A stretch of 64,000 nucleotides of DNA from Bacteroidales bacterium (GTDB lineage: Bacteria > Bacteroidota > Bacteroidia > Bacteroidales > UBA1715), in NCBI GenBank assembly GCA_017516865.1, contig JAFXAU010000003.1:199909-263908 (forward strand), read 5' to 3'. The notes below the pieces were generated by a model. The model was not told where the DNA came from. It was given only the letters and a program-made list of their open reading frames with translations, and did not search any database. Position 1 is the first letter of the stretch; each line of letters starts with the position of its first letter. Both the position numbers and the translations under genes were made by a program. Shown one piece after another: positions 36,688 to 48,170 of this stretch.

Positions 36688-36728
36688 CGTCTCTCAACTC
36701 TCGACTTTCGTCTCTCAACTCTCAACTA
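36688..36728. repeat. Polypyrimidine repeat block, copy 2
   Basis: TCTCAACTCTCGACTTTCG and related words overlap the stop codon of the T9SS substrate gene, so the repeat reaches the gene end. Confidence 0.65.
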
Positions 36729-39700
36729 CTGTTTCACAAAATTCGTAGAAATCTTCTTCTTCCCCTGTTCTATCTGTAGCAGATATTTTCCGCTCGGCAG
36801 GTTTCGGCAATCCAAGGTAAGGGAATGGACGCCTGCAGGCACATTGGTCATTTCTTGCACCATGCGGACCTTTCCAGTATTGTCAACACACGATATGGTG
36901 ACCGTACCCGCCTGACTGGTGCTGAACAACAAGGTTGTGGTCTTTTCAACGGGGTTCGGTGCCAAATGATACAGCGTGAAGTCTTTCGTATTGTCCTTGC
37001 AATACTGATTGCTGTAATAACTTGTATTCTGGCTCGACGACGAAATAGTTGCCGTAGCACACACGTAGTCTGGCAGTTCGTCGTTTTTGGCAACGGTTTT
37101 TGCAGGGAACACGTAGGTCAGCACGTCGTTGGGCTTCAACGCTCCATACCACGTCTCGCTCATCGTTGCAAAATCGGAACTCGAAAGTGCTATCTCCATT
37201 TCGGGAATCACATCGTTTCCCGTGTTAAGTATCTGAATACTATACTGAATCATACCTCTGTTTATGCGTGTGTTCACATCGGTTACCCGCAACTGCATAT
37301 CCGACAGCTGTACGGGAATCATTTTTATGACTGAATCCGAACAGCCGTGTTCCGACGAGGCACGCAATTTTGCATACGAATTTGTCTTGTCTTCGAATGT
37401 ATAGGTAGGATTTTCGTCGTCAACCACCACCGACTGCTCGAACGTCCATTCGTAATCAGTCGCCCCGTCCGACAAGTTGGTGAACTCAACCTCCAACGGT
37501 GCCGCTCCATATTCGGGGTAATAACTAAAATCAACGGTTGGCGTCTCTTCTATCACGACAACGCCCTCGGCAGAATTTTTACAATTTTCCGCAGTCATTT
37601 CCGTCACCGAATAGGTATATTCGCCCGCTTCGGCAAATTCCACGACAGGGCGAACCTCATCCAAAGTTTTTCCGTTTATGTTCCACACGACCGATGCGAC
37701 TGTTTCTTCGGAATATGCCTCGTCGTATAACTGCACGCCCGTTTTTTTACATCCGTATATCCGTTCGGGAACAACAGGATAGGGAATTGCCCCTGCCTGT
37801 ATGGTATCGGTGACGACGTTCAAACAGCCGTTCAGCGTTTTCACATAAAGCCCCACGAAATGCGGCAAGGTGTCTTTCATCGGCCTAACCAACATGGTAT
37901 TGTAGCGAAACTTCGTACTATCAAACACCCAGTATGCATCGGTACGGGCATTGAATGTCTCATATTGCGTACGGTCGATTATCAGGGCGGTATCGCCAAG
38001 ACACACCGCAGAATGTTCTATCTGCAATTTCGTGGAAGGAAACACCCGTATGTTTTCTTCGAACGTATCTTCGCAGCCCTTGTCCGTAACAACCTTGAGC
38101 GACAAATGGTACTCCCCTACGGTATCGGAAAGGAAGCGGAACACGCTGTCGGCACTATGTTTGCCGATACCGTTCCATTCATAGGTGGCAATTGTTCCCG
38201 AACTGACCGTCGAGATTGACGTGATGAGATTCTCGGTATATTGGCACGAACGTTTGGGAGAAAATTTCGCCACCGGCTTAGGGTCAATGGTGACGTATTC
38301 GGTAAGCGACGCAATACATCCTTCGTCATTTTCCACGAGAATTTCCACAGGCAATACGCCAGATTCGGAAAACACGTGTTGCTGAACCGCACCATCGAGC
38401 GTATCGTGTTCAACCACCCAACGGGTGGCGACAATTTGGGTATTGTTGGTTGTAAATGAATTTGAAATAAGTTCAGTCTCATCGCCAAAGCAGCGATATT
38501 GAGTTACAATCTGCGGATGCGGAGCCACGCCGTTTACTTCAACCTGAATTTCGTCGGTTGCGGAACAGCCACCCTCGTCGGTTACCACAACGGAATAAGT
38601 TCCTGCATTTTCAATTGTGAGCGTTGCAGTGGTATCGCCCGTGTTCCACTTATATTGTTTTGCTTCCGAGGCACACGAAACTAACCCTATGCTGTTACCT
38701 TTGCACAACGTGGTATCGGCACCCAGACGAGCCGTCGTTGAAAAGTCATCAACGTCAATCGTCACCGTGTCCGAAACGATGGAATACCCTTGATTATCGG
38801 TGATTTTCACCGCATATTTCCCCGCCTTGGTTATGGAAATTTCCTGCGTAGTCTCGCCCGAGCTCCACTCGTATGTATAGTCGCCACTCAGACCACAATC
38901 CCACGTAACGGAACTGCCGTCGCAGATAGTCTGGTCGGGAATATAACGGATTGTTGGCATTGAAACCACCACGGTGTCGATATAATCGTAACCCCAATCG
39001 TCGGTTACGTACACCGCATACAATCCCGACTTTGTAACAGAAATAGACTGGGTATTTTCACCCGTATTCCACGAATACGTCTGGAAATACGACCGTTCTG
39101 GTACGGTAAGCGTAATTGGTTTCAAACTATAATCCTGTTCAATTGTTCCACCCAACGAAAACTGCTCCCGCTCCGTTCCCGGAAAATACTTGCTCCGCAA
39201 ATAATTCTCCACCGATTGACGTTCGATATTTGAAAGGGGGCGGTCATAAAAAATCATTTCGGCTATGTCGCCGTTGAGATTTAATCCTGGATAAGGAGAA
39301 ATACCATCAGCGTCATTATACGTTCCAATATAAAAAGTATAGTTACTTACAACAGATTGGCTAATAGGAAGTTCTATCGTTTGCACATATCCATTTTGAA
39401 AATAAAAAAGCTGTGGCTCAACAAGATTTACTCTTTCTGAATACAGAACAAACTCACCTATACAAGATGGTCCTATGGGCATATAATAATCTTTTCCTAT
39501 ATGAATAAAATATTCCGGACTATTCTCATACAATAAAGAATATCTATTGGGAGTACCTCCTCTTAATGATTTGGCATAAAATGTCCCATTCTTTCTATTT
39601 ATCAAGCCAACACAAAACACAGTTTGTCCCACTTTGCCAACATTCAAGATATCTCCTCCATCTAAATAATCTGTTCCGTCAAATCTCAAAACTGCATGAT

Positions 39701-39971
39701 TATGTAATTCGGCAAGATTTTTCACCAAAGTAGGAGAATTTTCTGGGACAGATTGTGTAACGGATACTGTTGTACTTGCTAAATTGTACCATATAGAAAC
39801 AGCAGAACCATCATCTTGCTGCACAGAATCGGCACACCACCAGGCGGAGATGCCTGCTATTTCGGTGGGGGCGGTTATTTGAGAGAAAACAGAAGCATTT
39901 ATTGCCATTGCTACCAGCAGGCAAATCATATATCGAAATTTCAATACCGATTTTCTGTTTTCTCTATACAT
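36726..39971 (-). CDS. Large exported multidomain protein with T9SS type-A sorting domain
   Basis: A 1081-residue protein from the ATG at 39971; the GTG at 39989 falls inside a likely -7 box. After a signal peptide (ending ASVFSQ) comes a LamG/concanavalin-like domain (about 30-260, WYNLAST ... LRFDGTDYLDGGD ... GDIAEMIFYDRPLS), several Ig-like and PKD repeats (for example YEWSSGETTQEISITKAGKY and FTNLSDGATDYEWTFE), and a C-terminal T9SS type-A sorting domain (about 1005-1081: LAPNPVEKTTTLLFS ... GKYLLQIEQGKKK). It is predicted to be secreted through SprA/PorV and processed by PorU. Adhesion is likely; no enzyme domain was seen. Confidence 0.85.
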   Translation of the reverse strand: MYRENRKSVLKFRYMICLLVAMAINASVFSQITAPTEIAGISAWWCADSVQQDDGSAVSIWYNLASTTVSVTQSVPENSPTLVKNLAELHNHAVLRFDGTDYLDGGDILNVGKVGQTVFCVGLINRKNGTFYAKSLRGGTPNRYSLLYENSPEYFIHIGKDYYMPIGPSCIGEFVLYSERVNLVEPQLFYFQNGYVQTIELPISQSVVSNYTFYIGTYNDADGISPYPGLNLNGDIAEMIFYDRPLSNIERQSVENYLRSKYFPGTEREQFSLGGTIEQDYSLKPITLTVPERSYFQTYSWNTGENTQSISVTKSGLYAVYVTDDWGYDYIDTVVVSMPTIRYIPDQTICDGSSVTWDCGLSGDYTYEWSSGETTQEISITKAGKYAVKITDNQGYSIVSDTVTIDVDDFSTTARLGADTTLCKGNSIGLVSCASEAKQYKWNTGDTTATLTIENAGTYSVVVTDEGGCSATDEIQVEVNGVAPHPQIVTQYRCFGDETELISNSFTTNNTQIVATRWVVEHDTLDGAVQQHVFSESGVLPVEILVENDEGCIASLTEYVTIDPKPVAKFSPKRSCQYTENLITSISTVSSGTIATYEWNGIGKHSADSVFRFLSDTVGEYHLSLKVVTDKGCEDTFEENIRVFPSTKLQIEHSAVCLGDTALIIDRTQYETFNARTDAYWVFDSTKFRYNTMLVRPMKDTLPHFVGLYVKTLNGCLNVVTDTIQAGAIPYPVVPERIYGCKKTGVQLYDEAYSEETVASVVWNINGKTLDEVRPVVEFAEAGEYTYSVTEMTAENCKNSAEGVVVIEETPTVDFSYYPEYGAAPLEVEFTNLSDGATDYEWTFEQSVVVDDENPTYTFEDKTNSYAKLRASSEHGCSDSVIKMIPVQLSDMQLRVTDVNTRINRGMIQYSIQILNTGNDVIPEMEIALSSSDFATMSETWYGALKPNDVLTYVFPAKTVAKNDELPDYVCATATISSSSQNTSYYSNQYCKDNTKDFTLYHLAPNPVEKTTTLLFSTSQAGTVTISCVDNTGKVRMVQEMTNVPAGVHSLTLDCRNLPSGKYLLQIEQGKKKISTNFVKQ

Positions 39972-40695
39972 AGAAATGAGTCTTTGCACAAAGATATAAA
40001 TATTCTCTTACATTCAACACAAAACTCCCCTCTCTCGTCTTTCTACTTTCGACTCATTTGTCTATACATTATAAAGAGATGACAACAGACTACGGACAAC
40101 GGACTACAAAGGCTGTCGTCGGTTGTCTATTGTCCGTTGTCCTCTATTCTCTCGTCTTTCAACTTTCGTCTACTTCCATGAGATCCCTCGCTACGCTCGG
40201 GATGACGGTCGAATAAGGATAAGATAAAGGGAGAAGTTTATCATACGATAATGTTGGAAAGCAGAATGTTCCGACTGAGCTGCGATGCGTTAAGAAAATC
40301 AATGGAGTGCAGCGTAAAAAAAGAATAGCATTGCCCAACGGGGATTTGTGCAGAGGGGCAATTTTATTCTTTTAGCGAAACGCAGTTGATTTTTAGCTGA
40401 GCAGGTCCGTCGGCGGCCTTTCTTTGGGTTCCGTTTCCTGTGGGCATTTTGCTCACGTTCGGCAAAGAAAATACCTTTTCTTTGCTCTCACTTAATCGCA
40501 AAATTCTTTCGCCGCCGAAAGAAATGGAACAAAATAGATTGTTGATTTCTTGTATGACCAAAATAGATAATTTCGAAATAAAAAGCATCTCCCTAGGGGA
40601 GACAGTCGGAACACCTCCGTTGTCCGTAGTCTGTAGTCCGTTGTCCTCTATTCTTTCGTCTCTCAACTTTCGTCTCTCAACTCTCGACTTTCGTC
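39972..40695. other. Repeat-rich intergenic region
   Basis: These 724 bases hold no convincing gene. They contain the promoter of the T9SS substrate gene, polypyrimidine blocks (about 40028-40052, 40146-40172, 40648-40698), words based on GACAACGGACTAC / TGTCCGTTGTCC (40081-40145 and 40618-40645), a GGGATGACGG element (40182-40212), and a GC-richer segment (about 40400-40530) containing CTTTCTTTGGGTTCCG, which resembles a dispersed Bacteroidota intergenic element. Confidence 0.55.
39989..40023 (-). promoter_or_regulatory. Bacteroidota promoter of the T9SS substrate gene
   Basis: On the minus strand TATCTTTG (39996-39989) matches the -7 box and TTTG at 40023-40020 may be the -33 box, with a 23-base gap. 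Its position supports the ATG at 39971 as the real start. Confidence 0.45.
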
Positions 40696-40698
40696 TCA
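40648..40698. repeat. Polypyrimidine repeat block, copy 3
   Basis: CTCTATTCTTTCGTCTCTC, CAACTTTCGTCTC and CAACTCTCGACTTTCGTCTC. It abuts the stop codon of the AAA ATPase gene, just as copy 2 abuts the T9SS substrate gene. Confidence 0.65.
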
Positions 40699-41823
40699 AT
40701 ACGTTACCTCCAACCACCGAGAAAGAAACACATTATAAACAGAATACTTTCGTTCTGTCGGGGTGATGGTTTCGAGCAACAATTCTTTATCCGTCAGCGA
40801 TTCAAGATTACGGCGGGCATTCGTGGCACTGCCAATCTGATATTTTGCCAAAAAATCCGCCGACGTCACACTCTGCACCGATTGTTCCTTTGCCACGGCA
40901 ATGAGCAACCGCCACTGTTGGTCGGTTATCAAATCACGAATCTGCAAGAAATTCGACGTTTCTTTTTCCAATATCTCACGACTCGCCTTTCGGGCTACAG
41001 CTATCGTAACAACCTTGGGACGCATCGCAAATATCTCATTACAGAGCGACTGCGTATAAAACGTATGGCGACGTGTCCAATCAAGAATATAGTCCATCGC
41101 CTCGTCGTCAACCGTGGCAGGCCGGAATTTTTCCCTGATAAATGCCGCATATTTGTCGGCATCAATCTTGCCGAGCGACAGTTGTCGCGTGCTTGAATAG
41201 AACGGTCGTGCCGCATCGGAAAATATTTGAGCCATAATAGACTTCTTACTGCCACAATAGATAATGCTTATGTTGTGCATCTGTTGCGTATATGTCCGAA
41301 GCAATGCTTCAATATTCGTTTCGGGGTATTCCGTTATCTGTTGAAACTCGTCAATGGCAAGCACTACGTGCTGTTTCTGTGCGTTCAAAAAGGTAAACAA
41401 CCCTTTGAGCGTATATTCTTTCTCGGTTGGTGAACTAAAATTGAATTCCACCTGCGGCATTCCGCTCGTCGGGTCATAACTAATGACTGGTCGATAGCCC
41501 TTGAGCAACGACATAAATTTGCCACCTATAGTGGTTTTTTCTGGAAATTCCGCAAGAATAGCTTCCGACAAGGTTTTTATAAAATCTTTGAGCGACAGCG
41601 TGGCAAAAATATCAACATAGATACACGTAAATGGCAATTTTTGATCGGATATTTTATAAAAAGTATGCAAAATCAGTCCTGTTTTACCTAATTTTCGAGG
41701 AGAAATCAGTGTGGTATCAAGACCATTTTGTATGTTCGACAACAGTATCTCTGTTTCTTTCTCCCTGTCGCAAAACAATGCAGGAGACGCGTAGCCCTTT
41801 GCTAAAAACGGATTTTTTTCCAT
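40696..41823 (-). CDS. AAA family ATPase of the archaeal-ATPase (ATPase_2) type
   Basis: A 375-residue protein from the ATG at 41823 (MEKNPFLAKGYASPALFCDRE). Walker A is LISPRKLGKTGLIL (about 33-46), Walker B VVLAIDEFQQI (about 137-147), and YCGSKKSIM is a sensor-like segment. The C-terminal third looks like a winged helix (SVTSADFLAKYQIGSATNARRNLESL). Such STAND-like ATPases are multi-copy in Bacteroidota and their role is unknown. A 3-unit palindromic repeat lies at its promoter (41865-41906). A 5'-truncated ATPase of a related kind lies at the far border of the polysaccharide locus. Confidence 0.82.
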   Translation of the reverse strand: MEKNPFLAKGYASPALFCDREKETEILLSNIQNGLDTTLISPRKLGKTGLILHTFYKISDQKLPFTCIYVDIFATLSLKDFIKTLSEAILAEFPEKTTIGGKFMSLLKGYRPVISYDPTSGMPQVEFNFSSPTEKEYTLKGLFTFLNAQKQHVVLAIDEFQQITEYPETNIEALLRTYTQQMHNISIIYCGSKKSIMAQIFSDAARPFYSSTRQLSLGKIDADKYAAFIREKFRPATVDDEAMDYILDWTRRHTFYTQSLCNEIFAMRPKVVTIAVARKASREILEKETSNFLQIRDLITDQQWRLLIAVAKEQSVQSVTSADFLAKYQIGSATNARRNLESLTDKELLLETITPTERKYSVYNVFLSRWLEVTY

Positions 41824-41838
41824 ATCTAAACGTTTTTG

Positions 41839-41846
41839 CAAATATA
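41839..41846 (-). promoter_or_regulatory. Bacteroidota -7 box ahead of the AAA ATPase gene
   Basis: On the minus strand TATATTTG followed by C matches the -7 consensus, ending 15 bases before the ATG at 41823. The -33 position falls on the first palindromic repeat unit that begins at 41865. Confidence 0.5.
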
Positions 41847-41864
41847 TACATACTTTTTTAAAAA

Positions 41865-41906
41865 ACCTATTTTAGGTTACCTATTTTAGGTTGCCTATTT
41901 TAGGCA
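41865..41906. repeat. Three tandem 14-bp palindromic units (CCTATTTTAGG core)
   Basis: ACCTATTTTAGGTT occurs at 41865-41878 and 41879-41892, and GCCTATTTTAGGCA at 41893-41906. Each unit is a palindrome around TTT, and in the third the flanking bases changed together (A..TT to G..CA), keeping the symmetry. They sit 19 bases upstream of the -7 box of the ATPase gene, where an operator would be expected. Confidence 0.8.
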
Positions 41907-42050
41907 ATGTTTTTTTTAACGACAACAGACGATAACACAAATTTACACATGCCTCTATTCTTTCGTCTCTCAACTTTCTTACGCCAAAATCCGTAATTAC
42001 CCTCAACCACAAAGAACTCCAAATTATTAATCCACAACAACATACTCTGA

Positions 42051-42096
42051 TTTTTCGGTAATTTGAAGATTTATTTTTCGGTGATTTGAAGATTTT
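42051..42096. repeat. Two-copy 23-bp tandem repeat
   Basis: Units at 42051-42073 and 42074-42096 both start TTTTTCGGT and continue with ATTTGAAGATTT, differing at two positions. It lies 28 bases beyond the stop codon of the second LTA-synthase-like gene. Confidence 0.7.
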
Positions 42097-42123
42097 CCTA
42101 TTATTGCCTAGTAGAAAAATCTC

Positions 42124-43869
42124 TCAACGCCTATTAAAGTAATCAGCCCTTATCATTTTATCAGAAATGTTATATGCGTCCTTTTCTAATATAACCCTAT
42201 TTTTCAAAGCAACACTATCAGTTACATTCACACCAAACCCTTTCCAATAATAATCGTCAATGCCAATACAATGCAAAATAGTAGGGAATATATCCATTTG
42301 ATAGCACAAGTCACTAACAATCACCCTTTTACCTACAACAGGCGACATAATAATCAAAGGACAATATGATTCATTCTGCGGGATAGGATAATTATATTTC
42401 TGTGCAAAAGGGGCAAATTCATCAAGCAAAGATTTCTTAAACACCGTATGGTCTCCCGTTATCACAACTGTTGAAGAAGATAACAAAGAAGCAACATCTA
42501 ATTTGTTTAAGAAATCACCAATACAACTATCGGTATAATGGACACAATTCAAATAGCCACGTAGATTTTGTGGCATATCATTCTTAAACGGAAGATTAAT
42601 ATCAGAAACATTTTCAAACGGCACATGCGTTGATATTGTTATTATTTGAGTACAGAATAGTCCTTTTTTTGTAATGATATTTTCATATGCCATATTGAAT
42701 ATCTCCGCGTCATTCACTTTTCGGCATTCAGGAAATACATAATCTTTATAATTATAACAAACATTCATCTCATGTTGATTCCATACATTGCTATTCAATG
42801 GGTTTACATTCGTGGCATTTTGATAATAATGGGCAATATTTGGATACTTGTTTTTCCCAAACAACATACAAGCTGCACCAGTTTGTATTGGTAGCATACC
42901 TGTATTCACAAGCATCTGTCCATCACCTGAATTGCCATACAAAGCCTGCGACTTAATCTTTGAGCAGTACAAAACGGAATCTGAATTGATAAGTTTCTGC
43001 ATATTGGGAGCCACATAATCTCCATTTTCATCTTTGAATTGCAAGGTCCAACTTTCCAAACTTTCAACTAAAATCACAATCAAATTATTTTTTGCAGTAT
43101 CTCTTGACGCATTCACTCTAAACAGACTATCTATAATTTTATGTTCTTCTTCTGAAAACTCAACTCCGGTACAGTACGATTCAAGATAATCAGTCCTATA
43201 TTTTTTGAATAAGAACATACTTGGAACATAATGAATTATTGAACTACTCTCAATATAAAAGCTCATTGTGGAAGGAATACGTCCTTCTGCGATTTTTTTC
43301 ACTTGAGAAATTCTATTTTCGTTTGAAGAGAACACCTTCCCTGTGTAAAATAACAAATCTAATCCGTAGAAAAAAAATGCCATACATAAACAAAGAACAA
43401 ACACCCTGTAATTTTTCTCTTGGGGCTTGCTAATAATAAATAATACATATATCGCATACAATATGGTTATCAACACAAAAACAATTGGTTTCCAATTAAT
43501 GTATGCAATAATGGATTTCGTAAATCCAGACAAATTACCAGCCATTGATATGGCATCAACGTCAAGGAAAAATCCGTATGAACGGAAATATACCATATTG
43601 GCAACCATCCAAACATCTATTAATAGCGACATTACGATTGTCCACCATTGCTTTTTGAATAAGAAAACAAAACTTGCTATTAATACTGCGGGAACTAATT
43701 TAGAAACGTAAAAAGAGAAAAAATCCATGGGGGAAGTCCACAAAGAACTGACAGCGACATACCCGAAACAAAAATAATGGAATAAAACGCATTTAATAAA
43801 TATAGCCAATGCAAAAGCAATGTATATATTTACAACCGTTTCTCTTACGTATTTCTTTATTACACCCAT
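42124..43869 (-). CDS. LTA synthase-like sulfatase-superfamily membrane protein (copy 2)
   Basis: A 581-residue paralogue of the 12.2-14.0 kb gene: the same five-helix N-terminus (IKCVLFHYFCFGYVAVSSLW) and extracytoplasmic sulfatase-like domain with LIVILVESLESW, GNSGDGQMLVNTGMLPI, VVITGDHTVF and YYWKGFGVN. It is the last gene of the minus-strand polysaccharide locus, 31 bases after the FkbH-like gene, so here it may add phosphoglycerol or phosphoethanolamine to the glycan. The donor and acceptor cannot be told from the sequence. Confidence 0.8.
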   Translation of the reverse strand: MGVIKKYVRETVVNIYIAFALAIFIKCVLFHYFCFGYVAVSSLWTSPMDFFSFYVSKLVPAVLIASFVFLFKKQWWTIVMSLLIDVWMVANMVYFRSYGFFLDVDAISMAGNLSGFTKSIIAYINWKPIVFVLITILYAIYVLFIISKPQEKNYRVFVLCLCMAFFFYGLDLLFYTGKVFSSNENRISQVKKIAEGRIPSTMSFYIESSSIIHYVPSMFLFKKYRTDYLESYCTGVEFSEEEHKIIDSLFRVNASRDTAKNNLIVILVESLESWTLQFKDENGDYVAPNMQKLINSDSVLYCSKIKSQALYGNSGDGQMLVNTGMLPIQTGAACMLFGKNKYPNIAHYYQNATNVNPLNSNVWNQHEMNVCYNYKDYVFPECRKVNDAEIFNMAYENIITKKGLFCTQIITISTHVPFENVSDINLPFKNDMPQNLRGYLNCVHYTDSCIGDFLNKLDVASLLSSSTVVITGDHTVFKKSLLDEFAPFAQKYNYPIPQNESYCPLIIMSPVVGKRVIVSDLCYQMDIFPTILHCIGIDDYYWKGFGVNVTDSVALKNRVILEKDAYNISDKMIRADYFNRR

Positions 43870-43900
43870 TTATTCCTAATTTGTTTTATTATTGCATAAT

Positions 43901-45739
43901 CTATTGTTTTCTGTATCGTTTACGAATTTCCTTCACAAATTCAGGTGTTCGGTCATATATCCAACCTTTTATTCTTGGGACATAATAATCGGTCAATTTT
44001 CGCAAATTGCTTTTTGGTTTAACTTTCTCTCCCAAAATCTTTTCTATATATTCATTCGCCTTCTGTGAAATTTCAAAATATACTCTTCGCTGAAAATGAT
44101 TAATAGTGTCGGTAAAATCGTCCTGTCCTTTTATAAAATCGTTAAAATCAAGCAACAGCACACGCTCATTCTGTTTGGCAAACAAACGTAAAGCATCGTT
44201 TAACTCTTTGTGATAAAGATGTCTGTTCTCAAATAATTTTCTGGTATTTGCCAAATAAGGCGTTTCACTTCCCAACATTAAAACAAGTGTTGTATCTGGT
44301 CGTTTTCTCAATAAGGTTTTTATATTCTCAATATATTCGTCGACAGATATCCTTCCTTGATATTCCCAGGTATTTGAGAAAGCCTGTAGCCACTCTTTAG
44401 TATAATTATTTGAATAACAATACAATTTACCGTTCAAGAAATCATCAATATTGTTAGTATCTGTCAAATCATTGCAATACTCACCAAAAGCCAACAAATA
44501 CCCGTCACGTTTACGACGATAAACAGCCAAACTTCCTTCAAGTAACGTTGAGAGAAATATCAGTTTTACCTCTGGATTGAACAAATCGGTTTCAAACATC
44601 TGAGCATCGTTGAATATGCACTCCTCAAGCAAAGTTTCCTTCTCTTCATTAGATAGAAACGGGAATCGCAAATAATTTACAGAGTGGTTCTGATGTTCTA
44701 TCGAGCTTTGCCTATCACCAATGTAAGTAAACTCTGTCAGAATTAACGAAGAATCGTAATTAAACACCATAGAACTCAAATCACAAGGGCCTTTAAACAA
44801 CACTTTCCCTGCCAGTTTACCCTTGGCGGCTTGTCTCGACGAAGTTTTATTTTGATTTATCCAAAGTGGCGCTGGCTCTTTTTTCAAATCCACAATCACA
44901 TCGCCAGCCACTTGTATTTCAGGAAAATTCAAAGTCGAATAAACATATTGCTCAACTCCTTGTCCAATAGTACGGCAGGAGAATAGGAAATGAATACAAC
45001 GATTATTTTTTATAGCGAAAAAGCCAACAATTCCGTATTTGCCGAAATTATCTTCCACCGTAACATAACCAGCATCCACGGTTTCATCTGACAATAAAGT
45101 CAACAATTCTTCTTTCGAACTTCGCAATTTTGTGTAATTCAACTGATTTGTCCGCTTTACCAATTCTGCAATTCTGTCGATTTCAGCAATACAATCTCGA
45201 TTAATTACCACGTGTGTGTTTGTACTATACAAGAATTGAATATTATCGGAATAGTGGGATTTGCTTATCTGTTTTTTCTCCAAAATCTTATAGTTACTCA
45301 AACGAGTGTGCCCCAAATCCGTCGGTTCAATTTCATTGAAATAATTAATTAAAGACGGAATAATTTCAGGCTCTGCAAAGTTTATTTGTGGAGCGAAATA
45401 TTTAACCTCATTTAAATTCGTGACATTATCGTCAACAAATAAAACATTCTCCTGACGGAACCCCATATCTGCTATCATTCGGGAAACACGTTCTCCCTTG
45501 GGCGTCCAATCAATAGAGTTAAAAACGAAATAATCCTGTATTTCAAATTCGTTTAGTTTCTCCAATACTGCCGAAGCATCATTTTTAGAGCAAATGGAAG
45601 ACACAATTCCACAATCAACCAACCGACGGATTAAATCTGCATGTTCTTTAGGCAAAAAAACATCTCCCTCACTCAACGTACCATTCCATAGACTGTCATC
45701 TAAATCCCAGATTATCAGTTTTATGTCGGAATATTGCAT
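43901..45739 (-). CDS. FkbH-like HAD-IIIC phosphatase with C-terminal extra domain
   Basis: A 612-residue protein from the ATG at 45739 (MQYSDIKLIIWDLDDSLWNG), preceded by AGAGAG; ATGs at 45781 and 45799 are alternatives, the last overlapping the upstream gene. The HAD domain has DLDDSLWNG and VLFVDDNVTNL. The middle FkbH domain includes FSCRTIGQGVEQYVYS. FkbH proteins form glyceryl-ACP or related acyl-ACP from glycolytic intermediates. The last 250 residues (LVLMLGSETPYLANTRK ... DTINHF) look SGNH-like, a second possible acyl-handling domain. No acyl carrier protein gene is visible nearby. Confidence 0.78.
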   Translation of the reverse strand: MQYSDIKLIIWDLDDSLWNGTLSEGDVFLPKEHADLIRRLVDCGIVSSICSKNDASAVLEKLNEFEIQDYFVFNSIDWTPKGERVSRMIADMGFRQENVLFVDDNVTNLNEVKYFAPQINFAEPEIIPSLINYFNEIEPTDLGHTRLSNYKILEKKQISKSHYSDNIQFLYSTNTHVVINRDCIAEIDRIAELVKRTNQLNYTKLRSSKEELLTLLSDETVDAGYVTVEDNFGKYGIVGFFAIKNNRCIHFLFSCRTIGQGVEQYVYSTLNFPEIQVAGDVIVDLKKEPAPLWINQNKTSSRQAAKGKLAGKVLFKGPCDLSSMVFNYDSSLILTEFTYIGDRQSSIEHQNHSVNYLRFPFLSNEEKETLLEECIFNDAQMFETDLFNPEVKLIFLSTLLEGSLAVYRRKRDGYLLAFGEYCNDLTDTNNIDDFLNGKLYCYSNNYTKEWLQAFSNTWEYQGRISVDEYIENIKTLLRKRPDTTLVLMLGSETPYLANTRKLFENRHLYHKELNDALRLFAKQNERVLLLDFNDFIKGQDDFTDTINHFQRRVYFEISQKANEYIEKILGEKVKPKSNLRKLTDYYVPRIKGWIYDRTPEFVKEIRKRYRKQ

Positions 45740-45786
45740 CTCTCTATTTTCTTTTTTATTATCACTTTCAAAAATAGGCATAAAAT

Positions 45787-46755
45787 CTAAAATGACCATT
45801 TATGCTCATCACTAAAATACTCGTTTGTTATTACCTTTTTTATCTTATCAACACCTGACGGATTCGGATGGTCGGCATCCACAAAATCATCGTCATTGAA
45901 CATTTCGTTACCATACATATCCACAAAGCAAACTGCATTATTTGATTCTACAATTTGATACAAAGCATCTTTTGACAGTTTCGTATTTTCTTTGTTGGCA
46001 TACTCATAAAAACAACTTCGCTTGGGCGGCACAACAATTATTAATTGTACGTTACTACTTAACACCCTATCAATTATATTTTGCAATATCTTTTGATTTT
46101 CACCAATTAAAGAACGCGTGAACTTTATGCCTGTCATCTCTGTCGCTCTATGCCTACAAGCTTCATTTTCATCATTAGTTGTTGTAACTGGTATAAAATT
46201 TTCCTCTTGTTGTTTTAAAACTGTTTCATTGTTAGATTCCGACCTCTTATATTTTTCCTTCAATACAGAAAAATCCCTATTGCACCGAAAAAAATTAGAG
46301 GTTGCCATCAATCGGTTTGCCAAGGACATATCCTGCATTGTGTCGGCATATTTATAGTATTCCCTGTCGGTGTAACGCTGGTTAGTCGAAAGCAAATCAT
46401 AACCGAGCATATCGTAATCGACAAATAGTACTACATATTTCAATTTTTTCTTGTTGCTAATTACTTCGCTTATAACCATTTGTGCATGAAACAGATCCTG
46501 ACCACTTACTGAATAGTTTCCAACATTTTCTTTATCCACGTTTAAAACAGACAGCCTTCCGACCGCACCTGCATGTGAATTACCAACAATGGCAACCTCA
46601 ACGCTATCCGAAGTTTGCCTAATACTCGCAAACAAATAATCAATTCTGGTTGGACAATCAGCAAACAAGACTTCTAAAACAATTATCACTGCAATAAAAA
46701 AACACATTATTGCAGCAACCTCAATACAAAATATTTTACTCTTACTCAATGCCAT
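45787..46755 (-). CDS. Membrane-anchored SGNH/GDSL-like protein, partner of MBOAT
   Basis: A 322-residue protein with one N-terminal membrane helix (about 12-32) and an extracytoplasmic SGNH-type domain: VAIVGNSHAGAVGR (nucleophile-block GNSH in place of GDS), QLIIVVPPKRSCF and C-terminal DADHPNPSGVDKI with the D-x-x-H pair. The plan matches DltD/AlgJ/PatB-like partners of MBOAT acyltransferases. The canonical nucleophile serine is present in GNSHAG. It overlaps the MBOAT gene by one base (TAATG), strongly suggesting a shared complex. Confidence 0.75.
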   Translation of the reverse strand: MALSKSKIFCIEVAAIMCFFIAVIIVLEVLFADCPTRIDYLFASIRQTSDSVEVAIVGNSHAGAVGRLSVLNVDKENVGNYSVSGQDLFHAQMVISEVISNKKKLKYVVLFVDYDMLGYDLLSTNQRYTDREYYKYADTMQDMSLANRLMATSNFFRCNRDFSVLKEKYKRSESNNETVLKQQEENFIPVTTTNDENEACRHRATEMTGIKFTRSLIGENQKILQNIIDRVLSSNVQLIIVVPPKRSCFYEYANKENTKLSKDALYQIVESNNAVCFVDMYGNEMFNDDDFVDADHPNPSGVDKIKKVITNEYFSDEHKWSF

Positions 46756-48170
46756 TAGAATTGAAAATAAATAAATGACTGTTCTTCAAACACACCAAAA
46801 ACATAAATACCTAGAATCAACATATAATCAAATACATAACGCAACGTTCTGTTTATTTTTGGTTTGGATGAATTAAAATTGTAAATATCAACCATACTTA
46901 GCAAAGCCACCAACAAAAGTAACAAAACAAATGTTTTTACGCTGATAAGGGGAACCCCTATTATACCACTATTTATAGTAGCATAATGGCTGAAAATATA
47001 ATATGCATCACTTACTGTATTCGCCCGAAACAACGATAAACCAAGCGCCACCAAAACAAAAGTCACCCCAAGTCGAAAAACATGATTCAACCTAAATGCA
47101 TCATCTGTTTTAGGAACATTTCCACACAATATTTTTTCTATCACAAGGAGGACTCCATGATACATTCCCCAAATTACAAATGTCCAATTAGCGCCATGCC
47201 ATAATCCACTAATAGTAAATGTCACAAACAAATTTACACAATGACGGAAATACGTGCATCTATTTCCTCCCAACGGAATATACACATAATCGCGAAACCA
47301 ACTGCTCAACGAAATATGCCAACGATTCCAATGTTCTTTAATACTACGACTTAAAAAAGGTTGTCGGAAATTGGTCATCAGGTTAAACCCAAATATCCGT
47401 GCCGTGCCAATGGCAATATCAGAATAACCTGAAAAATCGGCATAAATCTGAAACGTAAAGAACAATGCAGCCCATATAAGCGGAAATCCGCTGTAATTCT
47501 CAACATCGTTAAAAACAAGATTGACATACACCGCCAAATTATCGGCTATCACCATCTTCTTAAACAAACCCCATAATGCTTGTCGCAATCCATCTGTCAA
47601 CTGTTCATAATTTAGACTTCTCCGTTTTGAAAACTGTGGCAAAAGATTAGTGGCTCGCTCTATTGGTCCGGCAACTAATTGTGGGAAAAATGACACAAAT
47701 GCAAAGAATTGGATTATATCACACGTGGCAGGCAATTTTCCCCAATAAACATCAATACTATAACTCAAGGCCTGGAACGTGTAAAAACTAATACCTACAG
47801 GCAATACCACATTCAACAACAAACCGTCCGAATTTCCATTAAGAAAAACATCGGCAAAAGAATGAACAAAAAAATTATAATATTTGAAAACACCAAGTAT
47901 CAGCAAATTAACCACAATGTTCATTGCATTTACAATCTTCGCCTTACGTTTATCTTCTCTATATTTCTCAATCATCAACCCACTTGTCCAACTGCACAAC
48001 GAAGTGAACGCAATAAGTATCAAAAATCGCCAATTCCACCAACCGTAAAAAACATACGAAGCGGCAAGCACAAACGCATTCTGCAACCGAAGATTTCGAT
48101 TGAACACAAACCAATAGAGCAAGAAGACTATCGGAAGAAATATGACAAATTCTATGGAATTAAAAAGCAT
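46755..48170 (-). CDS. MBOAT family O-acyltransferase (AlgI/PatA-like)
   Basis: A 471-residue protein with about ten membrane helices. It carries the AlgI-type start NSIEFVIFLPIVFLLYW, FFPQLVAGPIER, and the catalytic histidine motif GLWHGANWTFVIWG. Family members transfer acyl (often acetyl) groups across the inner membrane onto polysaccharide, alginate or peptidoglycan. With the SGNH protein and the FkbH-like gene immediately downstream it forms an O-acylation module for the glycan of this locus. Confidence 0.9.
   Translation of the reverse strand: MLFNSIEFVIFLPIVFLLYWFVFNRNLRLQNAFVLAASYVFYGWWNWRFLILIAFTSLCSWTSGLMIEKYREDKRKAKIVNAMNIVVNLLILGVFKYYNFFVHSFADVFLNGNSDGLLLNVVLPVGISFYTFQALSYSIDVYWGKLPATCDIIQFFAFVSFFPQLVAGPIERATNLLPQFSKRRSLNYEQLTDGLRQALWGLFKKMVIADNLAVYVNLVFNDVENYSGFPLIWAALFFTFQIYADFSGYSDIAIGTARIFGFNLMTNFRQPFLSRSIKEHWNRWHISLSSWFRDYVYIPLGGNRCTYFRHCVNLFVTFTISGLWHGANWTFVIWGMYHGVLLVIEKILCGNVPKTDDAFRLNHVFRLGVTFVLVALGLSLFRANTVSDAYYIFSHYATINSGIIGVPLISVKTFVLLLLLVALLSMVDIYNFNSSKPKINRTLRYVFDYMLILGIYVFGVFEEQSFIYFQF

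Follow-up and report, generated by a model that had tools for sequence, protein, structure and literature searches.

The tandem array of palindromes in front of an ATPase gene in the window, the whole 64,000-nucleotide stretch of Bacteroidales DNA that was analysed, is probably both the cognate operator of that ATPase and the terminal repeat of an exchangeable cassette with the ATPase as its single gene. At the level of sequence comparison the array is conserved among relatives, it diversifies together with the recognition helix of the adjacent protein, it bounds exchanged segments, and it stays behind singly where the cassette appears to have been lost. An operator alone does not explain arrays on the 3' side of the gene, single arrays without an ATPase and arrays at the edges of exchanged segments, so the array is more than an operator.

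Results

Structure of the array in the window

Positions 41865-41906 read ACCTATTTTAGGTT ACCTATTTTAGGTT GCCTATTTTAGGCA. The palindromic units (ACCTATTTTAGGT, ACCTATTTTAGGT and GCCTATTTTAGGC) are 13 bp each and follow one another with a period of 14 bp, and each is built up by two complementary 5-bp arms (ACCTA/TAGGT) around a TTT centre. A sequence-only reading of the window had claimed three tandem palindromes at this place and compensating changes at both flanks of the third that keep the dyad, and both claims agree with the sequence. When the 150 bp upstream of the gene were shuffled 3000 times with dinucleotide composition kept, the observed array score was never reached. The array occurs once in its own 2.66-Mb genome, where three of the four exact RCCTATTTTAGG sites are the array units themselves. 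TAnnTTTG is the -7 promoter consensus of Bacteroidota, and a box of this type lies 18 bp from the gene-proximal unit (19 bases in the earlier reading), so that the array would cover the place of a -33 element. The features are collected in Table 1.

Table 1. Features of the array and the ATPase gene in the window
Feature	Position	Strand	Basis
Palindromic unit 1, gene-proximal, ACCTATTTTAGGT	41865..41877	.	sequence and shuffle test
Palindromic unit 2, ACCTATTTTAGGT	41879..41891	.	sequence and shuffle test
Palindromic unit 3, distal, GCCTATTTTAGGC, both halves of outer pair changed	41893..41905	.	sequence and shuffle test
Two distal units and outer flank, kept in ATPase-less sister species	41879..41935	.	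L030 1500-1556
-7-like promoter box TATATTTG	41839..41846	-	sequence; scan for TAnnTTTG
ATPase gene, 375 aa, PF01637 ATPase_2, P-loop GKT at residues 46-48	40696..41823	-	Pfam 37.3 bits
Predicted recognition helix of C-terminal winged helix, codons 333-345; residues 334 and 338 covary with arms	40789..40827	-	model and covariation

The neighbourhood (36726-48170) encodes a PKD/secretion-tail protein, a sulfatase-type membrane protein, a DUF1574-like protein, an MBOAT acyltransferase and, as judged by eye, a HAD/FkbH-like protein. A tandem 23-bp repeat, ATTTTTCGGTRATTTGAAGATTT, is present in two copies at 42050-42095, between the array and the sulfatase gene.

The ATPase and its fold

The ATPase gene runs on the minus strand from the ATG at 41821-41823 to the stop at 40696. 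Its product belongs to PF01637 with a score above the cut-off of 33.2 bits, and 117 of 118 aligned homologues match this family at E<=0.001. Both the profile and a predicted model (built on 11 sequences, mean pLDDT 76.5, pTM 0.57) give an AAA+ core followed by a C-terminal winged helix, as in the solved members SSO1545 (PDB 2fna) and PABY2304 (PDB 2qen) of PF01637, a family of archaeal-type AAA+/STAND ATPases. The predicted winged helix consists of helices 301-313, 322-327 and 333-345 and wing strands 349-353 and 358-362. The profile of 118 members matches 2fna over the full length (E 1.1e-18), and the model superimposes on 2qen with Z 18.8 (rmsd 5.1, 321 aligned residues) and on 2fna with Z 17.5. 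Structures of Orc1/Cdc6 (2qby, 2v1u and 1w5t) follow at Z 16-17, and the fold predicted to be common with them says nothing on function. Matches to TnsC, MuB and plant NLR proteins (Foldseek and VIA-align, Z about 12-14) were set aside as the common P-loop fold only.

Pfam finds AAA-type domains only and no nuclease domain in the window ATPase, and NCBIfam has no family for it. Profiles of candidate defence families in PADLOC give partial, weak matches, the best with E 1.6e-4 over residues 147-203. Viral contigs hold three homologues of the ATPase and no match to the window-type dimer. In the order, PF01637 is found by protein search in 135 of 295 sampled genomes, with up to 16 matches per genome. 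To our knowledge, the PF01637 ATPases of Bacteroidota have no assigned function or DNA target, and we know of no DNA site, terminal repeats or mobility for the PF01637 family as a whole.

Arrays in front of related ATPase genes

An independent scan of genome contigs rendered nine close homologues with 80-88% identity, and all nine carry two to five units of the window palindrome at the same place, with mostly unrelated DNA beyond the array. The window-type dimer pattern is rare in the order (7 of 393 genomes), and a close ATPase adjoins it in five of the seven genomes that have it. In the other two (G302 and G221), which lack a close ATPase anywhere in the genome, the dimer is head-to-head and lies between genes for surface polysaccharides. 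At two loci in genomes without a close ATPase (L022:1499-1532 and L023:1499-1532), the head-to-head dimer lies within a longer perfect palindrome between such genes, and a short ORF starting MAKILKLSDLPKVDPKNRKG is found near it.

Among more distant homologues, at about 30-50% identity, arrays with the same geometry are frequent, but their arms are different, among them ACGCA, TAACA, ACGAA, ATCTA, ATACA and TTACA. When periods of 11-20 and centres of 0-7 are compared in 120 upstream regions, arrays are in excess at period 14 alone, most strongly with a 3-bp centre. The arrays were searched for in a sample of assembled genomes, and the tests of PF01637 genes concern members from Bacteroidota. 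With a strict test (two units, p<=0.02), 67 of 120 upstream regions pass in the first set against 9 of 122 downstream regions, and some of these nine are probably real 3' arrays. In the enlarged set the test is passed by 132 of 282 regions upstream of ATPase genes and by 1 of 52 regions of other ORFs in the window (Fisher 7.5e-12). Loci with N runs (L043 and L066) have no array statistics, short ones (L222 and L242) were skipped, long fusions or broken frames (L153-L161) were excluded, and L223 and L224 duplicate L062 and L063.

The pass rate depends on identity to the window protein: 16/16 above 75% (six of these repeat the same loci, leaving ten distinct), 13/26 at 45-75%, 43/61 at 38-45%, 44/93 at 34-38%, 12/48 at 30-34% and 4/38 below 30%. 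The low rates among far relatives suggest that the array is widespread but not universal, or that it is degenerate there. Homologues without upstream palindromes had been named beforehand as what would refute an operator; the nine close homologues speak for it, whereas the test is passed by no more than 16 of the 86 upstream regions below 34% identity. Of the nonredundant arrays, 132 in all, 84 consist of two units, 38 of three, 8 of four and 2 of five, and the array is upstream of a TAnnTTTG box in 59, downstream in 18 and overlapping in 11, with no such box in 44.

Some other repeats and relatives were seen on the way. Upstream of the ATPase in L043 there is a run of a 14-bp repeat, AAAAGTGTGATACT, which is broken by a stretch of N; it has the same period but is not obviously palindromic. 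In front of a paralogue in the genome of the window (L004, C20), with 24-28% identity, TTACTAACAA recurs about every 15 bp as judged by eye, a repeat that the period-14 test missed. In one genus of the phylum (L153-L159) the homologous ATPase forms the N-terminus of open frames of about 1300-1900 amino acids.

Covariation of arm bases and the recognition helix

The arms of the 132 nonredundant arrays follow the pattern N1 N2 N3 N4 A5. The phase of an array can be read in two ways half a period apart, and it was brought to a common frame with a procedure that uses overall protein similarity. When pairs of equal protein identity are compared, arm base 4 is linked to column 338 with a score of 34.2 (next column 10.0, spread over all columns 3.7) and arm base 3 to column 334 with 28.5 (next 18.6). 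An arginine at 338 goes with C at arm base 4 in 49 of 59 arrays, serine with A in 21 of 30 and threonine with T in 10 of 17. In the same way, an alanine at 334 goes with A at arm base 3 (17/20), threonine with C (5/5) and serine mostly with G (69/106). At the locus L235, whose protein has about 48% identity to that of the window, the arms are TAACA and the protein has A334, L337 and R338, as in the TAACA/TTACA group.

If each arm is predicted only from sequences less than 45, 40 or 36% identical, column 338 ranks first of 363 for arm base 4 at all three cuts; for arm bases 2 and 3, column 334 ranks first below 45%, second and third below 40% and 23rd and 57th below 36%. Co-change on the branches of a tree gives a weaker and mixed result, with 334 first of 332 for arm base 2 and 338 first for arm base 5, but 338 only 28th for arm base 4 and 334 180th for arm base 3. 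Among the 66 closest disjoint pairs, 338 is associated with arm base 4 (34/6/11/15, Fisher 3.8e-4, rank 3), and 334 is absent from the best columns listed for arm bases 2 or 3; in a set of 43 pairs the Fisher values for 334 are 0.58 and 0.71. A first column scan of 77 arrays, made before the phase was corrected, had columns 341, 334, 336 and 325 at the top, and in a scan of 86 arrays column 172 came above 334 for the pooled arm score. For arm position 1 no column of the recognition helix is pointed to consistently. An avoidance of common arms by paralogues was not taken as evidence, since none of 31 pairs within genomes has an arm in common and the 1.86 predicted from identity-matched pairs of different genomes is not significantly more.

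The covariation of arm bases with residues 334 and 338 of the predicted recognition helix, which is encoded by the very gene that the array precedes, supports that the ATPase reads its own promoter. This is good evidence, short of proof, from sequence data. The earlier suggestion of a cooperative or autoregulatory operator, possibly recognised by the winged helix at the end of the ATPase, is thus supported in part, by this covariation, by the nine close homologues and by the arrays of like geometry but other arms in many distant ones; it falls short of the fuller role indicated by the arrays on the 3' side.

The array as the end of an exchanged segment

In four pairs of loci (L012/L013, L010/L011, L009/L011 and L016/L017) the gene is 90-97% identical and the flanks are unrelated. 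Homology starts 70-91 bp before the ATG in these pairs, at the distal edge of the array or within about 10 bp of it; on the 3' side homology ends at variable places, between -4 and +111 as counted from the stop. Other near-identical pairs have long common flanks, i.e. they are at the same site. Two pairs considered as moves (L134/L271 and L064/L205) were ruled out because each is at one common site, and three loci considered as one cassette in unrelated places (L207, L265 and L277) turned out to have a single common site and a local insertion.

An array of the locus's own motif is found within 100 nt past the stop in 15 of 227 loci (those with an array score of at least 16 and at least 60 nt downstream), compared with 5 of 1806 in the control. 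These 3' arrays are mostly at +0 to +11, have the same orientation as the 5' copy and a nearly identical sequence, and occur in about ten protein groups by the author's reading. Most loci, including that in the window, have a 5' array only. In L062/L203 the segment from the 5' array to the 3' array is common and the adjoining DNA is different. There is another common segment about 2 kb away, however, so that these loci may be two states of one variable region.

The subfamily with GCGAA arms has an array in 10 of 31 genomes, and in seven genomes arrays 1173-1185 bp apart flank an ATPase. The cassette is at one site, common on the left side, in six genomes (G695, G712, G185, G081, G713 and G714) and at another, unrelated site in two (G703 and G274). 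Compared with each other, the two sites lose homology no more than about 8 nt from the outer edge of either array. The same element with fixed ends is thus present at unrelated sites in this subfamily, and perhaps also in L062/L203. In a further genome (G701) the first site is present with its two flanks and precisely one array. A tree built from the left flank nests this genome among cassette-bearing species, so that a clean loss is the best interpretation.

The sister genome of the window (G397) shares the neighbouring PKD/secretion-tail gene but lacks the ATPase. About 84 bp past that gene it retains two units of the array together with 30 bp of the outer flank, with 96.6% identity over 58 aligned positions. 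Another genome in the family sample (G398) has both array and ATPase.

Related observations were made at three other places. L331:2120-3330 and L373:7702-7730, from sister species, are the filled and the empty state of a single site for an ATPase cassette (P0002) with arrays at its ends. At L017:4210-4234 a second window-type array lies about 90 bp past the ATPase stop and is followed by about 17 bp of ATPase promoter sequence, with a repeated outer flank, as if a second cassette began there and had been truncated. A gene of about 1 kb (Fic-like by eye) is inserted close to the ATPase cassette at L334:3790-4830 and is absent from the otherwise collinear L333.

Inspection by eye of the DNA outside the arrays showed no target-site duplication, although a duplicated array may itself be one. 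The ATPase is the only gene between the arrays, where no transposase (DDE, HUH, serine or tyrosine recombinase) is found. Since the direct repeats are only about 1.17 kb apart, slippage or recombination between them can explain loss to a single array. An agent is still needed for the other step, in which the cassette is gained, with array edges, at a new site.

Discussion

In the proposed mechanism the recognition helix of the winged helix would read the 5-bp arms, as suggested by the covariation, and successive units of 14 bp would seat several protomers side by side. With the array over the predicted promoter, the ATPase most likely holds down its own expression. The proposed cassette starts with the array and the promoter and continues with the ATPase gene, and a minority of cassettes have another array directly past the stop; sequence comparison shows that it is swapped between unrelated places and that its loss can leave one array.

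An array that is an autoregulatory operator and nothing else is unlikely, but it is an alternative to be taken seriously. Ordinary horizontal transfer in fast-changing surface-polysaccharide regions would then account for the exchange, selection would keep promoter and operator together with the gene, and extra or single arrays would be local duplications and products of slippage. In its favour, several neighbours are glycosyltransferase or acyltransferase genes, and in L207/L265, where the array is downstream of the -7 box, the common segment starts at the promoter and not at the array. Recombination between small repeats 1.17 kb apart is also possible unaided. However, random breakpoints at 94-97% nucleotide identity should give common flanks of differing length, whereas the start falls at -70 to -91 in the four exchanged pairs. 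Nor would an operator on its own be expected to mark both outer edges of homology in the GCGAA cassettes or to reappear directly past the stop in the 15 loci with 3' arrays.

It is very improbable that some other host factor reads the array, or that the array acts as RNA in the form of a hairpin or terminator, so that the likeness to the ATPase would be an accident of the family. The units are palindromic and the arrays downstream of the -7 box (18 of 132) would be transcribed, but 59 of the 132 are upstream of the box and hence would be outside the message. The arms change with the recognition helix of the protein encoded next to them and differ between paralogues in the same genome, where none of 31 pairs is alike against 1.9 expected, albeit not significantly. 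Chance or simple low-complexity repeats can be dismissed, for even if the region is AT-rich and single units with three mismatches are common (12 in the window, shuffle mean 8.45), the shuffles, the conservation in all nine close homologues and the excess at period 14 only refute it.

The combined role of operator and terminal repeat can be compared with several known systems. Archaeal Orc1/Cdc6 initiators bind repeated origin boxes and have, like the window ATPase, an AAA+ module followed by a winged helix. The repeats of the window family differ in that they are on the promoter of the protein itself and at the cassette ends, and in that the arms differ between paralogues.

Integron attC cassettes and pdif modules are single genes exchanged between palindromic recombination sites with their own recombinase absent, and the proposed ATPase cassette resembles them in this. 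It differs in having arrays with a 14-bp period, arms that are specific to the encoded protein and a promoter of its own. RAYTs are HUH tyrosine transposases, and in REP/RAYT systems the gene is likewise flanked by palindromes tied to its product, with gene-less copies of the palindromes elsewhere. REPs reach more than 100 copies per genome, in contrast to one locus per genome for the ATPase arrays, and the window protein is, unlike a RAYT, a P-loop ATPase in which no nuclease domain is found.

The STAND-type regulators MalT and IniR also combine a P-loop ATPase with a C-terminal DNA-binding domain. IniR binds and induces its target promoter and has an ATPase domain that resembles SSO1545 (PMC5760070). 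Both regulators have long sensor domains, and their described targets are genes other than their own. The window ATPase, in contrast, has 375 amino acids and no sensor domain, and the array is found only at its own gene in the genome.

A search of the open-licence literature found no description of arrays at PF01637 ATPase genes. The parts are of known kinds, a PF01637 ATPase and a tandem operator, but we cannot place a proposed cassette that contains only an ATPase and is bounded by cognate arrays in any known kind.

A more far-reaching interpretation is offered tentatively, and on the whole it is doubtful. The cassette might be a minimal mobile element of a new kind, in which a single gene for an AAA+/Orc-like ATPase lies between palindromic arrays and the winged helix of the product recognises these arrays. 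The protein would assemble on the terminal arrays and, together with a host recombinase or replication, excise and re-insert the cassette. Arrays left behind would be landing sites, and diversification of the arms would keep cassettes in the same genome from reading the ends of each other.

The correspondence between recognition helix and arms would give the PF01637 ATPases of Bacteroidota a DNA target that is predictable from sequence. If the arrays are also the ends of a one-gene cassette, an Orc-like ATPase would stand at the core of a mobile unit where a transposase is usual, and the family would offer dozens of naturally distinct pairs of protein and operator usable as orthogonal regulators.
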